DNA from: Burkholderiales bacterium 8X
GTDB lineage: Bacteria; Pseudomonadota; Gammaproteobacteria; Burkholderiales; Burkholderiaceae_C
Direction of reading: 5' to 3'
Assembly: GCA_902506565.1 (NCBI GenBank)
Contig: LR732703.1
Location: forward strand, 4,420,883-4,484,882
DNA: 64,000 nt
In this document: positions 18,942 through 39,197 of the stretch, in pieces
Layout of the letters: every line of letters starts with the position of its first letter
How positions within the stretch are numbered: position 1 is the stretch's first letter
Position numbers and translations under genes: made by a program
Notes under the pieces: generated by a model
What the model was told of the DNA's origin: nothing
What the model saw: only the letters and a program-made list of their open reading frames with translations
Databases searched by the model: none

Positions 18942-21035
18942 TTACCAATGGAATCCGGCGCCGGCAGCCAGGCCGACCTTGCCGCGCGAGTTGGCGGTGC
19001 CGCTCAGCTTGATGACCCAGCGGCCGTTGTCCGACAGCTTGGAAAGACCGACCGCCAGGGCCGCCTGGCCGTCGTAGCCCGCAACGCCGGCCGACACCAT
19101 GCTCTTGCCCGGGATGAAGGCCTGCGGCAGGTTCGCCATCGCCATCGCGCCGGCGGTGCCCGCGCTCGCGTCCTTGGCAAATTGGTCGACCTTGCTCTGG
19201 ACTTCGGCGACCAGCCGTTCCGCATGCTGGTTGGCGTTGGCGAGGCCGGTGTTCAGCTGGTTCAGGTTGACCGCATCACTGCCCTGCACGCCGGGTGCGA
19301 CGTTGGATACCGTGGTGCCGTTCGGCGCGTTGCCCTCGCCGAGCACCACGTTGCCGTGGTTGACCGAGCCGTCCGCGTTCGACGCGTACTGCACGCTCGC
19401 GGCCTGCACCGCCCGCAGCTGCCGGAGGTTGACCGCGTCGGTCGCCTCGGTGCCGCCCGCCACGTTCGTGATCTGGCGCTCGCTGCCGGCGCTGCCGACC
19501 GCGACCGCGCCGCGGGACGAGGTGATGGCCGTGTTCGAGATGGCCTCGAGCTGGCCGTTCATGCCGGTGCGGCTGGCGACGCTGCCCGAGCCGAGCGCCA
19601 CGCCGTCCTGCACGCTCACCACCGCGGCGTTGCCGACCGCCGTGCCGCGGATCGTGCCGATCGCGATCGCGTTGTCGCCGAAGGCCGCGCCGCCGCCGCC
19701 GGCCTGGGCACCCGCGCCCACCGCGACCGAGTTGGTCGCGACCGCGAGCGCCTGGCTGCCGCCGGCTTTCGAGTTGGCGCGGAAGTACTTGGTACCGCCG
19801 AGATCGATGTCGTTGACCGTGGTGCTGAGCGTGCTGACCCGGCCATCGACGATGGTGACGCGGTTGTCGACGCCGGTGACTCGGTTGTCGACGGTGGTGA
19901 CGCGGCCGTCCACAGCGGTCACCCGGCCGTCTACCGTGGTGACTCGCGCATCGACATTGGCGACATCCTGGTTGGTGGTGAACAGCTGGCTGCCGTTGAC
20001 CGCGTCGGTGCTGCCGGCAGTCAGGTCGCCCGCGGTGACCTGGGTGATCTTGGTGGTGTTCGCGCCGTTCGGATTGCCGCTCAGCGTGACCGTCGCGTGG
20101 GTATCGTCGTCGTACTGCACCGCGCGATCGGTGGCGGTCTCGAGCGCGGACTGCACGGCGAACAGCTGGCTTCCGTTGATGCCGTCGGTGCTGGAGCGGG
20201 ACACTTCGCCCGGTGCCACGAACTTGAGCTGTCGCGTCTGGCTCGGCTTTCCGAAGCTGACGACCGGGGACAGCGGGTCCGCTCCCGCGTAGCTGTAGGT
20301 GTTGCCGTTGATCACGGTATTCGGGGTGTAGACGGATTCGACCGTCCGCGCCTCGAAACCGATGGCGACTGAATCCCTCGAAGTGGCCTGTGCCCGTTGA
20401 CCGATCGCGATACCGCCGGGCGCCGTCGAAACCTGCGTATCGAAGCCGATCGCGATGCCACCGCCAGAATCTGCGGCGACGCCGCCTTCGGCAGTCGTCC
20501 CGATCGAACTGCCACCGAGCGCGATGGACGATCGGGCCAATGCCTGGCTTTGCGCGCCGATTGCCGTTGAATCGACACCGGTGGCGACCGAATTCTTTCC
20601 GATGGCCAATTGATCGCCGCTCCATGCACTCGCAATGGCGTTCGGTCCGATCGCAATCGAAGTGCCTGCGCTATCGACAGAAGTCATTGCCTGGGCGCCG
20701 GCGCCGATTGCGATATTGGTTGCATCGGTCGTCTTTGCGCAGCCGATGGCGATCGAGCCGCGCGTGGCAGTCGCTGCGCTCGCCTGGCCGGTCCCGGAAT
20801 TGAAATTGGCGCATTCCGCTGCCGATGGCGAAATGGCGGTCCCGCTTCCATCGCTGGTTCCTCCGCCGACGGCTTGCGCCCACCCGGCCCCGGAACCGAA
20901 CGCCAGCGTCAATCCGGTCAATGCCGTCGCGACCGACCCTGCGCGGGCTTTCTTGCCGCACGACTTGCCAATTTCGGAAATGGCGACCCAGGCACCCAAT
21001 GCCTCATTCCAAAGGGTGCGATACGACTTATTCAT
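18942..21035 (-). CDS. Trimeric autotransporter adhesin (YadA/Hia type)
   Basis: A 697-residue type Vc adhesin. An extended signal peptide region (MNKSYRTLWNEALGAWVA) leads to a cleavage site near Ala55. Residues about 95-230 hold YadA-head repeats (SIAIG, TAIG, SVAIG patterns). Neck/HIM motifs with DAVNGSQLF and DGINGSQLF occur near 285 and 345, a heptad coiled-coil stalk at 361-402, a second head block at 430-520, and a YadA anchor from about 595 to the terminal GAGFHW. Trimers insert in the outer membrane and mediate adhesion or autoagglutination. It forms a likely operon with the TpgA-like gene. Confidence 0.94.
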   Translation of the reverse strand: MNKSYRTLWNEALGAWVAISEIGKSCGKKARAGSVATALTGLTLAFGSGAGWAQAVGGGTSDGSGTAISPSAAECANFNSGTGQASAATATRGSIAIGCAKTTDATNIAIGAGAQAMTSVDSAGTSIAIGPNAIASAWSGDQLAIGKNSVATGVDSTAIGAQSQALARSSIALGGSSIGTTAEGGVAADSGGGIAIGFDTQVSTAPGGIAIGQRAQATSRDSVAIGFEARTVESVYTPNTVINGNTYSYAGADPLSPVVSFGKPSQTRQLKFVAPGEVSRSSTDGINGSQLFAVQSALETATDRAVQYDDDTHATVTLSGNPNGANTTKITQVTAGDLTAGSTDAVNGSQLFTTNQDVANVDARVTTVDGRVTAVDGRVTTVDNRVTGVDNRVTIVDGRVSTLSTTVNDIDLGGTKYFRANSKAGGSQALAVATNSVAVGAGAQAGGGGAAFGDNAIAIGTIRGTAVGNAAVVSVQDGVALGSGSVASRTGMNGQLEAISNTAITSSRGAVAVGSAGSERQITNVAGGTEATDAVNLRQLRAVQAASVQYASNADGSVNHGNVVLGEGNAPNGTTVSNVAPGVQGSDAVNLNQLNTGLANANQHAERLVAEVQSKVDQFAKDASAGTAGAMAMANLPQAFIPGKSMVSAGVAGYDGQAALAVGLSKLSDNGRWVIKLSGTANSRGKVGLAAGAGFHW
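19830..19955 (-). repeat. Six 21-bp repeats encoding the adhesin coiled-coil stalk
   Basis: Codons for residues 361-402 form six heptads of VD(A/G/N)RV(T/S)x. The DNA units are related at the nucleotide level, so slippage could add or remove whole heptads without a frameshift and change stalk length. Confidence 0.8.
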
Positions 21036-33423: not shown

Positions 33424-34203
33424 ATGGACAAGCGCGCACAGGCTGGTGTGCAATCGGTGGAGAACGGGCTCGATCTCATGCTGATCGTGGCCCACCATCG
33501 CCGGCCGATGAAGATCACGGAGATAGCAGAGCGGGCCGGTATCTCCCCGAGCAAGGCGCATCGATATCTGGTGAGCTTCTTGCGCACCGGCTTCATCACG
33601 CAGGATCCGGAAAGCGGGCTTTACGGCATGGGCTCGGTGGCGCTCGAATTCAGCTTGTCGTGCCTTGCCACCATCGAGCCGATTTCACTCGCCACGCGCG
33701 AGGCCGAGCGCCTGGCGGTCGAGCTGGGTCACACGGTCGCTGTCTCGGTTTGGGGCAGTTTCGGCCCGACGGTCGTGCGGTGGGAGCAACCGGCTCGACC
33801 GGTGATGGTGAACGTCGGCCTGGGGTCGGTCTTTCCGCTGTACCGATCCGCCACGGGGCGGGTGTTCGCGGCCTACATGCCGCAGGAGCAGATGAAGTTG
33901 TATCTCGACACGGTCGCGGCGCGCGAGCAGAAGGCCGAGGCGGCGAGCGAAACCACCGACCAGGTACGGGAACGCGGCATGGCACGAGCCGTCGGCGACT
34001 TCATGGACGGCATGAGCGCCTTCGCCGCGCCGGTGTTGGATGACCGCGGGCGGTTGGTGCTGACGATGACGGTGCTGGGGTACAAGGCCGGCTTCGATCA
34101 CCGGTGGAGCGGGCCGGTTGCGGGGGCGCTGCGAGAGGCGGCGGTGAAGCTGTCTCGGACGCTGGGGTGGGAGCATGAGAGGTTGGCGTTGCGGGAAGGG
34201 TGA
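33424..34203 (+). CDS. IclR-family transcriptional regulator
   Basis: A 259-residue regulator. The N-terminal winged HTH spans about residues 10-70 (MKITEIAERAGISPSKAHRY), followed by the effector-binding domain (GHTVAVSVWGS, LYRSATGRVFAAYMP). It is divergent from the acyl-CoA ligase operon with a 202-nt gap and probably controls it in response to an aromatic or aliphatic acid. Its stop abuts the broken end of the haemagglutinin remnant. Confidence 0.9.
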   Translation: MDKRAQAGVQSVENGLDLMLIVAHHRRPMKITEIAERAGISPSKAHRYLVSFLRTGFITQDPESGLYGMGSVALEFSLSCLATIEPISLATREAERLAVELGHTVAVSVWGSFGPTVVRWEQPARPVMVNVGLGSVFPLYRSATGRVFAAYMPQEQMKLYLDTVAAREQKAEAASETTDQVRERGMARAVGDFMDGMSAFAAPVLDDRGRLVLTMTVLGYKAGFDHRWSGPVAGALREAAVKLSRTLGWEHERLALREG

Positions 34204-36173
34204 CGAGGGTTCGAGTTGATGTCCCTGGTGATTACGACTGCTGCACCGCCGACTCCCGACGCCACTTCGATGATGTGCGGGTTGCCCGGGCCGCTGCCCG
34301 GAACACCCGGGCCGCTCTTGCGAACGAAATCACCGCCCACGCCGAACGGCGCGTCCACGCGGCTCGCGCCGACCTCGGATGTCGTGACGCTGACCACCGG
34401 CGGGATCAGCACGCCGATACCTGCCTCCTTCGGGTCTGCCGGCATGAAGAACGCCAGGCCATCCGATGTAACGATCGTCTGGGCCTGAGTCGGCGTGTTC
34501 ACCAAGTTGGCGGGTGCCATGACGAGCTGCCCGCCCGCGATGAGTTGGCTGTCGCGATTGACCAAGGCGCCGGTCACCTTGATGTCACGGCCCGCGACGA
34601 TCTGGCCCGGGTCGGGTGGGTTCTCGGTGTCGTTGCGCACCGACCCGGCGCCGATCGAGATGTAGTCGCCGTAGATGCGGCCGGTGCCGATGTTCAGGAG
34701 CGACGCAGCGTCGATCTGGGTGTCGTTGCCGTCGATGACGCCTCGGTTGGTCAGGGTGCCGGGGGTTCGCAGCTTGGTGACGCCACCGGACAGGTCACCT
34801 GATGCGGTGTTGTCGATCGCGGCGGCGCTGACGTCCAGGGTCTGGGCTGCGGTCAGCTTGCCGGCGTTGGTGAGGGTGCCAGCAGCGCTGTAGCTGAGGT
34901 CGCCACCAGCGCGGACCGTGGTGCGGTTGATGCTGTCGCCTTGAACCGCGATGCCGACGTTGCGGGTTGCCTCGATCTGGCCTTCGGCTGCGAACGAAGA
35001 CGCGTCAAGGCGCAGGTCACGATTCGCGAGAAGGCTGCCGCCTGCGTTCTCGACAACACCCGCTTCGACGCGCAGGTCCGTGCCTGCGAGAACCTGGCCG
35101 CCTCGGTTGTCGAAGAGGAAGCGAGCCGGGCCGGCGGGCGAATTGCCGTCACCATCGATTGCCGCGCCATTCGCCACCTTCGAATGAATGGCAACCGACG
35201 ATTGGCCGGCAATGCGTCCGCCTCCGGCGTTCACCAGGCTCAGCGTCTTCAACGTCATTGCGCCTTCTGCGCCGATCAGACCCGCGGTGTTGTCGATGCT
35301 CGCGGCCTCGAGACTCAGAGTCCCTGTGGTCGCGATGCTGCCGCCGCGGTTGTCGATGGCGGTATCGGCAGCACTGGCGATGTTGGCGCCGTTCGCGCCG
35401 TTCACGTCGTTGACAGCGCCGGCGCGAAGCAGTGCTTCGCCTGCACGGATGGTTCCTTTGGTGTTGTCGATGCGCTCGGCGTTGATCGCGAGGCGCTTGC
35501 TTGCGCTGAGGGTTCCGCCTGCATTCACGATCGCACCAGCAAGTGCCGCGTCCGAAACTTGGATGCTTCCCCCTGCGTTGTTCAGCTGCTGTGCTTGCAG
35601 CGTGATCGCACCACCGTGGTAGATGCGGCCGGCTTCGTTGAGGAGCGTTCCCGCGGTTTCAATGTGACCGGGCGTCGTGGCGGGCGGAGGTGCTGCGGGT
35701 GCCACTTCCTCGACCACAGGTTGTGCGCCGTTGCCCTGACCGGCGCCACCGCCTGCGCCGTTGCCTCCGGCTCCACCGGCTCCACCGGCGCCGTTGCCAG
35801 CGTCGCTACCGCCTCCACCAGCCCCATTGCCACCGGGCGCATTGCCGTTCGGCGTTGGCGGTGGGCGCACAGGCTCCGCGCCGATCGTGCCGCCCGCGTT
35901 CTGCAGGTTCGCCGCAGCGATGGAGAGGCCCAGCGCTTGCGTCTGCCGGATCGTGCCGCCCTGGTTGTCGATGCCTTCGGCGCTCTTGATCTTGACGCTA
36001 GCCGCCTCGATCGTTCCCTTGTTCACCAGCTTGCCGTCGCTCGTGAGGATCGTTGCTCCGAACCTCGTTGAGGATGACTCGAGCCGCGCCATTCGCAAGC
36101 CACGGGTTCGCACCCACCGCGCCGCCCAGATTCGTCTGCGCCCCGGTCCTGCTGTTGTTCAGGATCGCCCCTT
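34204..36173 (-). pseudogene. Filamentous-haemagglutinin-like (two-partner secretion) gene remnant
   Basis: Leftward sequence encodes FHA-type repeats (SIDNTAGLIGAEGAMTLKTL, DNRGGQVLAGTDLRVEAGV and similar) with a Gly-rich linker. The first part, 36173-36065, reads in a different frame and has the conserved secretion-domain segment AILNNSRTGAQTNLGG and ARVILNEV; the frame then changes near 36055-36070 to continue as SDGKLVNKGTIEAASVKIKS. The 5' end is fused to an inverted repeat arm and lacks a signal peptide, and the 3' end runs without its own stop into antisense of iclR (next stop at 34098). So three boundaries are broken; this is a remnant, not a working adhesin. The uninterrupted frame is 34098-36113. 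Confidence 0.78.
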
Positions 36174-36372
36174 GCACAAGCACATCCCGACCTCGCACCA
36201 GTTCAAGAGATTGATCGCTGCTCGAGAACAGCATGGACTGAGCAAGCGAGACGTTGCTAATTCGCGCCGCCAACAGCGGCGCGAATTAGCAACGTCTCGC
36301 TTGCTCAGTCCATGCTGTTCTCGAGCAGCGATCAATCTCTTGAACTGGTGCGAGGTCGGGATGTGCTTGTGC
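36174..36372. repeat. Perfect 97-bp inverted repeat with a 5-nt centre
   Basis: Bases 36174-36270 and 36276-36372 are exact reverse complements around the loop CAACA (36271-36275); pairing fails at the next base outwards (36173/36373). The right arm is coding sequence of the protease at 36312, in the same frame as its paralogue; the left arm is an inverted copy fused to the haemagglutinin remnant. It could extrude as a cruciform in DNA. It may be a fold-back duplication or an assembly/amplification artefact. Confidence 0.93.
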
Positions 36373-37922
36373 TGGCAACAGTGACAAGTTCGGATCCACA
36401 AGAGGCGACGCCGCCAGGGCGCTTGGTGGTGCGTACTTTCAGCGGCGGGACGCTCTTCGAGACCCCCATGACACCGCCCCAGGGCGCCTTGCCAGCAAGT
36501 GTCTCTGCGTCAGCGGCGCCTACCCTCGCGGGCAACTATTGGGCCAGCGTGCCGTCGACGTTCGTGTTCCCCGGAATTTCGATCGCCGTCGAGCTCAAGG
36601 CCGGCGCTGAAGTGCGCAGCCTGCGCCCCAAGGTCGCGGCAGCTCAGCGCATCCGGCTGGTGTTGGTGCCCGTCCGGATCGGCAATCAGGTCGGCAAGGT
36701 GTACGCCCCCAGCGCCGAGGAAGTACGCTTGCGCACACCGCTTTCCAGCGTCGAGTCGCGCGCCCATGTCGACCTCACCTCGACTGTGGTCCGTGCCATA
36801 CCGGCAAATGACGACGCTTGGGCAGACGCGATGCACGACGTGCTTGGAGAAATCGCCGAGTTGCGCGCGCTGGAGCGTGCCGACGAGCGGACTTACTACG
36901 TCGGTTTTGTGCCGAAGCGAACAGAGGGGTCGAGCGGGGTGGCGTTGGTCGATGGCCATTCGGCAGTGCTGGGCGACTTCTCGAACTTCGAAGAGGCCGT
37001 TGTGCGCGACACGCTGATTCACGAGATTGGCCACAACCTGGGTCTCGAGCACGCGCCCTGTGGGGGCGCAAGTGATACCGATCCCCAGTATCCGTATGCC
37101 AACGCCGCACTGGGTTCGGGTAGCCGATACATCTGGGGCTGGCGCAGCGACAGCAGCACCTTCGTCGACCCGCGCGACCGTGACAGGCACGATGTGATGA
37201 GCTACTGCGCAGGCGACACCTTCTCGGACTACAACTACCGAAAGATCCAGCTCAATCTGCAGCGCGCAGCTTCCCGAACGCCGGCGCTCACGCCGGCCGA
37301 TCTCTCCACCCCGCCGGAGCCGTTGCTGTCGATCGTCGGAACGGTCAGCGGCGACAAGGTCGATGTTCGACCGGTCAAGAGCTTCGCCGGCCGCGCGGCG
37401 CCGGAGTCGAGCGGCAGCTACGTGTTGCGCCTGGAAGGCACGAACGGGCGCGTCGAGCATCGCTTCGAGCCGAAGCCGGTTGCCGATGCGCCCGGGCGAG
37501 CGATGTTCGCGCTGGCCGTTCCGGCGGCCGGCTCGCTTTCGCGGCTGCAGATCCTGCAGGGCGACCGGGTCGTGTTCGAGCGAGTCGCCAAGCCCGAGGC
37601 GGCGGCTGCGGCCCCGCAGTCGCAGCCGGCGCAGCAGCCACCGCAGCAAGGACAACCCCTGCAGCAGCAAGCCTTGCAGGCCGCGGCCGCGCAGCAGGTC
37701 GCCCTCGAGGAACAGGGCGGAAGCGTCCTCCTCACCTGGAACGCGGCCGCCTATTCCTCCGCCACGCTGACCCACGTCGGCGCCAGCACCCGCACCACCC
37801 TCGCCCGAGACCTCGATGGCGGCAGCGCCAGGGTTTCGACTGCGCAGCTCGAGCCGGGCGGCAGCTTCGAGATCGGTCTTTCGGACGGCCTCAACAGCAC
37901 CCACATCTTGCGATCTCGATAG
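36312..37922 (+). CDS. Metzincin-like metalloprotease, N-terminally truncated
   Basis: A 536-residue protein if started at the ATG at 36312; the frame is open back to 36276, the edge of the inverted repeat. The zinc motif HEIGHNLGLEH is at 237-247 and a Met-turn (DVMSYC, Met296) follows, together the metzincin signature. Residues about 435-475 are Gln/Pro/Ala-rich, then an Ig-like end. Compared with the paralogue at 37938 it lacks the signal peptide and about 90 residues, and no ribosome-binding sequence precedes the ATG. It is probably not expressed or secreted as such. Confidence 0.75.
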   Translation: MLFSSSDQSLELVRGRDVLVLATVTSSDPQEATPPGRLVVRTFSGGTLFETPMTPPQGALPASVSASAAPTLAGNYWASVPSTFVFPGISIAVELKAGAEVRSLRPKVAAAQRIRLVLVPVRIGNQVGKVYAPSAEEVRLRTPLSSVESRAHVDLTSTVVRAIPANDDAWADAMHDVLGEIAELRALERADERTYYVGFVPKRTEGSSGVALVDGHSAVLGDFSNFEEAVVRDTLIHEIGHNLGLEHAPCGGASDTDPQYPYANAALGSGSRYIWGWRSDSSTFVDPRDRDRHDVMSYCAGDTFSDYNYRKIQLNLQRAASRTPALTPADLSTPPEPLLSIVGTVSGDKVDVRPVKSFAGRAAPESSGSYVLRLEGTNGRVEHRFEPKPVADAPGRAMFALAVPAAGSLSRLQILQGDRVVFERVAKPEAAAAAPQSQPAQQPPQQGQPLQQQALQAAAAQQVALEEQGGSVLLTWNAAAYSSATLTHVGASTRTTLARDLDGGSARVSTAQLEPGGSFEIGLSDGLNSTHILRSR

Positions 37923-37937
37923 CGACTGGAGCATTTC

Positions 37938-39197
37938 ATGACGAGCGACCGCAACTTCACTTTGCTGCGCGACGTCGGCATCGGACGCCGACTTCGAACG
38001 GGCCTCGGCGCGTTCGCGGCGGCGCTGCTCGTGGCTTGCGGCGGTTCGTCTTCGGACGGCGATGCGGGAGGCGGCACGAGCCTCTCGCGTCCGCCATCGA
38101 CCTTCGCGCTCGGAGAGGCGCCTCAAGCTTCGGCAGGCACGCCGGCGGCCTCCGGCGCAGCAGACGGACGCGTCGCTGCCGCTCCGACCTCGGCTCAGCT
38201 CGCGAAGGTGCTGCTCGCGCAATCGCTCGTGCAGGCTGCGGACGACCCGGAGCTCGCCTTGCTCGGCCGACGCGACTTGCTGGTGCTGGCCCAGGTCACC
38301 AACCCAGCGCGCGAGGAGCCGACGCCGGAAGGCAGCCTGAAGATCCTCGGCGCCTCCGGCGAGCTGCTGGCCAACCTGCCGCTCGAACCGCCGCGCGGCC
38401 CGGTGCCGATGCTGCTGCCGGACAGCCCCAGTTTCAAGACCGCCTATTCGGTGACGGTACCTGGCAAGCATGTCGTGCCTGGCATCAGGCTGGCGCTCGA
38501 CTTCGGCGGCGGCCAGGTCCAGCGGACCGTCGAACCGGTGATCGGGCCGGCGCACGCGGTCACGCTCGTGACCGTGCCGATCCGCATCGGCAACCAGACC
38601 GGCGAGGTTGCGGCGGACATGGGTGCGGCGGTGGCTGCCCGCCTGCCGTTCTCCTCGGTGCAGGAAGTCGCCCATCCGGTCCACACCTTGCAGTCCGCGT
38701 CCGAACTTCCTTCGACTGCGGCAGGCTGGGAAGCCCTCTTCAGGAAGGTCAACGCCGAACTGCTGCAATTGCAGATCGCAGAAGGCGCTGCCGACGACCT
38801 GCGCAGGTTCTACGTGGGCTTCGTCCCGGCGAGCGGCGCCGCCAGCTTCGGCAACTATGCGACCCGGGTGGCAGCCGTCGGCGACGAGCGAGGCCAGGCG
38901 CGGCCGATCGTCGTCAAGTCGGTGGTGCACGAGCTCGGCCACGCCTTGTTCCTGTCGGATGCGCCCTGCGGCGCGGTGCAGGATCCGGACAAGAGCTTTC
39001 CCTATGCGAATGGCCGCATGGGTGCCGGCAGCCGCTACACCTGGGGCTTCGTCGCCGACATCCAGGCCTTCATCGATCCGCGCGATACCGATCGACACGA
39101 CGCGATGAGCCGCTGCGCCGGCGACACCTTCTCGGACTACAACTATCGCAAGATGATGTCGACGCTCGCAACCGGCGGCTGGTTGGCGCTGCGTTGA
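37938..39197 (+). CDS. Metzincin-like lipoprotein with a changed third zinc ligand
   Basis: A 419-residue paralogue of the previous protein. The N-terminus has a signal peptide with lipobox LVAC (Cys34) and a Ser/Gly-rich linker. Instead of HExxHxxGxxH it reads HELGHALFLSD (331-341): Gly is Phe and the third His is Asp; the Met-turn is DAMSRC (Met390). Some metzincins (for example snapalysin) use HExxHxxGxxD, so zinc binding may persist. Shared flanking segments (DAPCG, SFPYANGRMG, DPRDTDRHDAMSRCAGDTFS) show common ancestry. It starts 15 nt after the first gene. Substrate unknown. Confidence 0.75.
   Translation: MTSDRNFTLLRDVGIGRRLRTGLGAFAAALLVACGGSSSDGDAGGGTSLSRPPSTFALGEAPQASAGTPAASGAADGRVAAAPTSAQLAKVLLAQSLVQAADDPELALLGRRDLLVLAQVTNPAREEPTPEGSLKILGASGELLANLPLEPPRGPVPMLLPDSPSFKTAYSVTVPGKHVVPGIRLALDFGGGQVQRTVEPVIGPAHAVTLVTVPIRIGNQTGEVAADMGAAVAARLPFSSVQEVAHPVHTLQSASELPSTAAGWEALFRKVNAELLQLQIAEGAADDLRRFYVGFVPASGAASFGNYATRVAAVGDERGQARPIVVKSVVHELGHALFLSDAPCGAVQDPDKSFPYANGRMGAGSRYTWGFVADIQAFIDPRDTDRHDAMSRCAGDTFSDYNYRKMMSTLATGGWLALR

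Follow-up and report, generated by a model that had tools for sequence, protein, structure and literature searches.

Results

A long palindrome between two broken genes

The window, meaning the whole 64,000-nucleotide stretch of DNA analysed here, corresponds to G000:C1:4420883-4484882 in the genome of Burkholderiales bacterium 8X. This genome contains 4,787,691 bases in three contigs and is 99.99% complete; it is on the small side, because 88 of the 100 genomes drawn from the genus (its own included) measure at least 5.0 Mb.

The left side of the locus is occupied by the remnant of a filamentous haemagglutinin (FHA) gene on the minus strand. Its body (34098..36113) was recognised by the Pfam domain Fil_haemagg (PF05594) and by translation. 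A 127-bp FHA piece on the same strand (36047..36173) is joined to the rest of the remnant through a 5-bp overlap, GGATC (36047..36051). Compared with the four copies that are matched by both parts, 488 bp of FHA sequence are missing at this join, as computed by hand from the match coordinates. This length is not divisible by three, and the FHA frame is broken at the deletion.

On the right side, two genes of the Peptidase M66 family are arranged in tandem on the plus strand. Metzincin A (36312..37922; Pfam PF10462, E 4e-11, scanned from 36279) is truncated at its 5' end and lacks the N-terminal signal region and linker. Metzincin B (37938..39197) is a paralogue, 41–42% identical to Metzincin A, which has its own N-terminal part and extends 79 residues further in that direction. 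The plus strand is open from 36261 to the stop at 37922, with an in-frame stop codon of the metzincin frame at 36258-36260. The tandem pair occupies 36312-39197; in the genus draw of 100 genomes, a clear relative was found in 1 of the 99 others (a metzincin at 41%), together with two marginal matches.

The two broken genes meet in the palindrome that the original prediction had described, a perfect 97-bp inverted repeat with a 5-nt centre. The left arm (36174..36270, minus strand) and the right arm (36276..36372, plus strand) are complementary at 97/97 positions (100%), and the centre between them is CAACA (36271..36275). The left arm directly adjoins the 127-bp FHA piece. With the composition of the window, a perfect match of 97 bp at one place has a chance of about 2e-54, so a chance origin is excluded. 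When folded as DNA, the 199 nt form a single uninterrupted 97-bp stem of −142.5 kcal/mol, compared with a mean of −34.6 for shuffled sequences.

A scan of ∼607 kb of the same genome, namely the window, seven 19.9-kb stretches around FHA copies, twenty evenly spread 20-kb control stretches and one 4.1-kb contig, looked for perfect inverted repeats with a minimum arm length of 14 bp and a centre no longer than 60 nt. Besides the 97-bp palindrome, two were found, one of 15 bp with a 0-nt centre in the window and one of 18 bp with a 10-nt centre in a control stretch. Palindromes of this kind thus number one in the ∼0.6 of 4.79 Mb scanned, with no recurrence there, and the metzincin arm sequence is without a further copy in the genome.

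The centre of the palindrome matches metzincin homologues

The prediction had also placed a gene breakpoint at the edge of each arm. This was correct for the outer edge of the left arm, where FHA sequence begins (36173/36174), and wrong for that of the right arm: the metzincin frame passes 36372 unbroken, and the breakpoint on this side is at the centre of the palindrome (∼36264-36270). That both flanking genes are broken, the metzincin by 5' truncation and the FHA gene as a remnant, was confirmed.

A protein search with the metzincin returned 66 proteins, its own included, among the 8000 candidates scored. Metzincin homologues from named organisms, in this search and in a scan of named genomes, belong to Rhizobacter, Rhodoferax, Hydrogenophaga and a Burkholderiaceae bacterium. 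The right arm carries metzincin coding sequence, in which ARISNVSLAQSMLFSSSDQSLELVRGRDVLV aligns with the M66 homologues. Those homologues that reach far enough read approximately (P)TSAARIANVELAQSLLFPSGDSALVLVAGKDVLV after a linker that is often rich in Ala and Pro, and the window reads APPTAARISNVSLAQSMLFSSSDQSLELVRGRDVLV, beginning a few bases to the left of the centre. The frame APPTAARIS in the window matches the homologue consensus (P)TSAARIA, with the centre lying within Pro-Thr. Because of this match, the right arm and the centre are read as native metzincin sequence and as the source, and the left arm as the copy. The best homologue is 43% identical, and the frame across the centre was compared at the protein level. 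Other metzincins have a longer 5' part with a linker; their 5' ends are uninformative about this junction, because they are at most 43% identical.

The centre and its immediate flanks contain a 7-bp hairpin, GCGCCGC-CAACA-GCGGCGC (36264..36282, plus strand), which codes for A-P-P-T-A-A-R, in agreement with the Ala/Pro linker found before SAARI in the homologues. Judged by protein homology, this hairpin probably existed before the event, and it is the candidate primer of a fold-back.

The ancestral state was sought in three sets of genomes. Of 40 relatives compared by DNA, 12 gave matches, to FHA alone and at 68–83% identity, and a scan of named genomes yielded three metzincin loci at 38–39%. 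Neither among these nor among the 100 genus genomes is there a relative close enough to show the ancestral junction. No orphan copy resembling the N-terminus of Metzincin B was found in the genome. At 35998-36273 the inverted metzincin copy and FHA are read in one frame; the resulting chimera, to which we ascribe no function, measures 95 codons from stop to stop.

The FHA breakpoint recurs at a second locus

The 127-bp FHA piece is matched at seven other places in the genome. It is 100% identical to one of them, G000:C1:3157370-3157496, and 90–95% identical to the six other copies. The identical fragment (L003/L030) is located 1.3 Mb from the window, starts at the same base and adjoins a truncated acs gene; the join between FHA and the left arm (36173..36174) is therefore at the very base that forms the junction with acs at the second locus. 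At the far end of the fragment beside acs, ordinary FHA sequence extends for another 23 bases before this fragment makes its own jump. The two fragments have one end in common and the other end different.

The second locus (G000:C1:3157370-3157522) joins acs and the FHA fragment head to head, at the FHA base that is also used in the window. Its acs has 641 aa from the first ATG and has lost ∼10 N-terminal codons to the FHA fragment. The acs loci of 11 relatives were compared, with five minus-strand loci left out; L050, L051 and L053 are directly comparable and carry 22 residues before AHVAG, of which ∼12 are left here before FHA begins. The N-terminal part differs in L054, L058 and L060. A homologue of acs, 69% identical, is present elsewhere in the genome.

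Several further observations concern the FHA copies. In L034, near 10110 (G000:C1:4153509), the FHA 5' end jumps after 326 bp common to other copies; the sequence past the jump looks by eye like an inverted autotransporter-type gene, which makes this a further chimeric FHA junction. The frames that pass through the FHA signal-domain motif in L030–L036 measure 369–989 aa from stop to stop in seven copies, that of L030 being mostly antisense to acs. Since these frames are short in all seven copies, the genome's FHA family seems to be reduced or broken. Judged by its translation, the 4,118-base contig L084 of the same genome is part of a repetitive, Gly-rich autotransporter-like gene and lies outside the chromosome contig. 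By eye, the hexamer GATGTG stands 7 bases before the junction both in the metzincin arm and in one FHA copy.

Short hairpins at the FHA breakpoints

The breakpoint between FHA and the left arm lies in the loop of a 7–8-bp hairpin, or at most 1 base from it, in 6/6 other FHA copies; the hairpin is ggatcgc-AAAGGG-gcgatcc or a variant of it. The second FHA breakpoint, at GGATC, lies on its FHA 5' side in the loop of agcaacga-TCCG-tcgttgct, which has an 8-bp stem, in 3 of the 4 copies found; the seed left the breakpoint site unmatched in two copies on the 5' side and in three on the 3' side. In the fragment beside acs, which is the closest to the window piece, this second hairpin contains a mismatch (by eye).

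At 20,000 genome positions taken as random junctions, a stem of at least 7 bp has a probability of 0.0106 and one of at least 8 bp a probability of 0.003. Unusual stems were found on two of the eight junction sides examined, the two just described. On the other six, which are the 3' side of the GGATC join, the outer end of the metzincin arm, the second join of L030, both sides of the L034 join and the acs side, no large hairpin was found, the stems being 2–4 bp. In sequence terms, these two sites are suggestive of hairpin loops as places of breakage, and do not amount to proof.

Searches for SbcCD, Ku and RecB

A profile search with SbcD (TIGR00619) gave no match in the genome. The same model exceeded its cut-off in 0/21 genomes of the relatives draw, 2/100 of the genus draw and 7/60 of the family draw, each draw including this genome. 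Any match at all, those over the cut-off counted in, was obtained in 10/21, 57/100 and 23/60, respectively, and in the 14 controls the model gave a match in 13 and exceeded the cut-off in 8.

For SbcC (TIGR00618), the sole match in the genome scored 25.3 bits against a cut-off of 478.5. This candidate was rejected, as its frame encodes UrtD, a urea transporter ATPase (TIGR03411, 374 bits). The SbcC model is a poor test, exceeding its cut-off in 1/14 controls, and for this reason the case for absence rests on SbcD. Ku (twice) and RecB (once) scored over the cut-off in this genome.

Discussion

A probable fold-back scar

The palindrome is probably the scar of an in vivo fold-back or template switch during aberrant repair or replication. 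Three features that belong to fold-back inverted duplications are seen here. There are two inverted copies with a small loop between them (97 bp, 5 nt, 100%). The native sequence beyond the centre is lost and replaced, the N-terminal part of the metzincin being gone and FHA standing in its place. The hairpin nuclease Mre11-Rad50/SbcCD appears absent or inactive, in that SbcD has no match and the SbcC match, from a weak model, is UrtD.

In the sequence of events that we propose, a DNA end or a stalled strand within the 5' part of metzincin A would have exposed single-stranded DNA, whose 3' end could fold back on itself through the presumed native hairpin with its 7-bp stem and 5-nt loop. Self-templated synthesis of ∼90 nt would then have turned the small hairpin into the 97-bp perfect palindrome. 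The extended end would have quit its template and joined the FHA piece at a hairpin loop, the FHA piece would have joined the rest of the FHA remnant through GGATC, and the metzincin start and signal region would have been lost. In a cell with no recognisable SbcCD the hairpin would remain uncleaved and the palindrome could survive. We infer the order of these steps, the part that Ku or template switching may play in the joins and a causal role for the absence of SbcCD. The sequence can equally be read in the opposite direction, with a strand coming from FHA, entering the metzincin backwards and turning at the hairpin.

A broader proposal can be made from the same observations, one that we regard as speculative and rather unlikely to hold. 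Hairpin loops would be recurrent breakpoints in this lineage without recognisable SbcCD, with strands folding back or jumping at short native hairpins. The dispersed FHA genes, which carry the same 7–8-bp hairpin near their 5' ends, would serve as repeated landing sites. The outcome would be truncated neighbours, chimeric frames and long palindromes that other bacteria would destroy.

Alternative origins

The original prediction had offered two explanations, a fold-back template switch and an assembly or amplification chimera. This was the right pair, and the evidence favours the biological fold-back for four reasons: the centre can be read as native metzincin sequence that contains a short hairpin; the FHA breakpoint, at the loop of a conserved hairpin, is used at a second locus too; no SbcCD is recognisable in the genome; and the lengths of the exact repeats between FHA copies have no spike of the kind that an assembly would leave.

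The chimera deserves to be weighed with care, as a possible but fairly unlikely origin. It holds that during sequencing, amplification or assembly a strand snapped back in vitro on the short hairpin, was filled in, joined an FHA fragment and entered the assembly at a repeat-rich place. Snap-back of single strands occurs in vitro. Published accounts of library preparation and amplification include chimeric reads formed from single strands with microhomology, artefacts where sequences form structures (PMC8674242 and PMC10908179) and chimeric amplification products (PMC9484634). In this genome, the FHA copies have long exact repeats in common, and the metzincin cluster has one member on one contig, the protein search having found no independent assembly. 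One of the 20 control stretches contains a run of exactly 100 N that looks like a scaffold gap, and because of this run the chromosome contig may not be gapless.

Other properties of the data are difficult to reconcile with a chimera. Amplification artefacts are expected to recur, whereas one such palindrome is present in the ∼0.6 Mb scanned. The same FHA edge is joined to a different gene at the second locus, an outcome hard to obtain twice at random. An assembler needs long exact overlaps, and those at the joins are short, 5 bp at GGATC and, by eye, a few bases at most where FHA meets the left arm. With a completeness of 99.99% in three contigs, the genome is unlike those of most amplified single cells. 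The length of the FHA piece invited a more specific suspicion, since 127 is a common maximum k of assemblers. In the compared stretches, 28 exact matches reach 60 bp or more, and 26 of these link FHA stretches with one another or with the window; they measure 62–207 bp, and one has a length of 127. An artefact of assembler repeat length was dropped for lack of a spike at that value.

Recombination among FHA copies, or a moving FHA fragment with a fixed end, could have made the FHA junctions, the palindrome being a separate product of later quasi-palindrome correction. Such a history could draw on the exact tracts common to the FHA copies, which resemble those left by gene conversion, and on the left edge of the FHA piece, which is the same base at two loci. 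We nevertheless consider it improbable: the edge is found at two loci only, which have 127 bp in common and differ to the right of it, and stepwise correction leaves unexplained why the arm ends exactly at the start of FHA.

A selected element, for example a bidirectional terminator or a protein-binding palindrome between two units, would suit an extremely stable hairpin between head-to-head coding remnants, but is hardly credible given that the arms, which occur nowhere else in the genome, are simply coding sequence of the metzincin and that both flanking genes are broken. A plasmid origin was rejected, as a comparison of window positions 34000-38000 with plasmids returned four weak records with 2–3% covered.

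Relation to known systems

Fold-back inverted duplication as such is already known, from engineered E. coli and from yeast deficient in the Mre11 nuclease. Among the matches listed in the open-licence literature, neither this locus nor a comparable scar in a natural genome lacking SbcCD is described. If the fold-back reading is true, the locus would be a natural, base-resolved bacterial example without recognisable SbcCD, and thus the same pathway in the wild. It also predicts that lineages that have lost SbcCD carry more long palindromes and more breakpoints in hairpin loops than sister lineages that keep it. Such a comparison is possible inside one family, because SbcD exceeds its cut-off in some of its genomes (2/100 in the genus draw and 7/60 in the family draw).

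In E. coli, template-switch mutations at quasipalindromes usually alter a few bases, whereas here ∼90 bp would have been added and a non-homologous join would have followed. What the two have in common is a template switch at an imperfect inverted repeat, as described for the E. coli mutations in PMC7202029. A natural example in bacteria is the terminus of Lactobacillus delbrueckii ssp. bulgaricus, where PMC5345009 proposes that a short inverted repeat allowed fold-back synthesis and that the end was then repaired; unlike the present palindrome, the repeats described there are 38–76 kbp long, with copies separated by 1–8.8 kbp of unique sequence.

On the E. coli chromosome, SbcCD cleaves hairpins, and in cells without SbcCD and RecA inverted duplications form at palindromes (PMC3315005). 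The resemblance to the inverted chromosome duplication of the sbcCD recA strain lies in the model of a hairpin-capped end, suppressed by SbcCD; the difference is that an interrupted palindrome of 85 or 246 bp is the cause in the case described there, whereas here the palindrome would be the product.

A further correspondence is with the fold-back duplications of yeast. In sae2 or Mre11-nuclease mutants, inverted duplications are centred on natural inverted repeats of 3–15 bp (PMC10622511), and in yeast deficient in Mre11 or Sae2, repeats of 5–9 bp with spacers of 3–12 bp suffice (PMC7999016). The locus studied here resembles the duplications described in PMC10622511 in its inverted copy, centred on a small loop and probably on a pre-existing short inverted repeat, in the missing hairpin nuclease, which would here be SbcCD, and in a secondary rearrangement at the end of the copy. 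It differs from them in that the copy is 97 bp rather than a chromosome arm, that it ends on a dispersed repeat, and that it stands in a natural bacterial chromosome and is known from its sequence alone.
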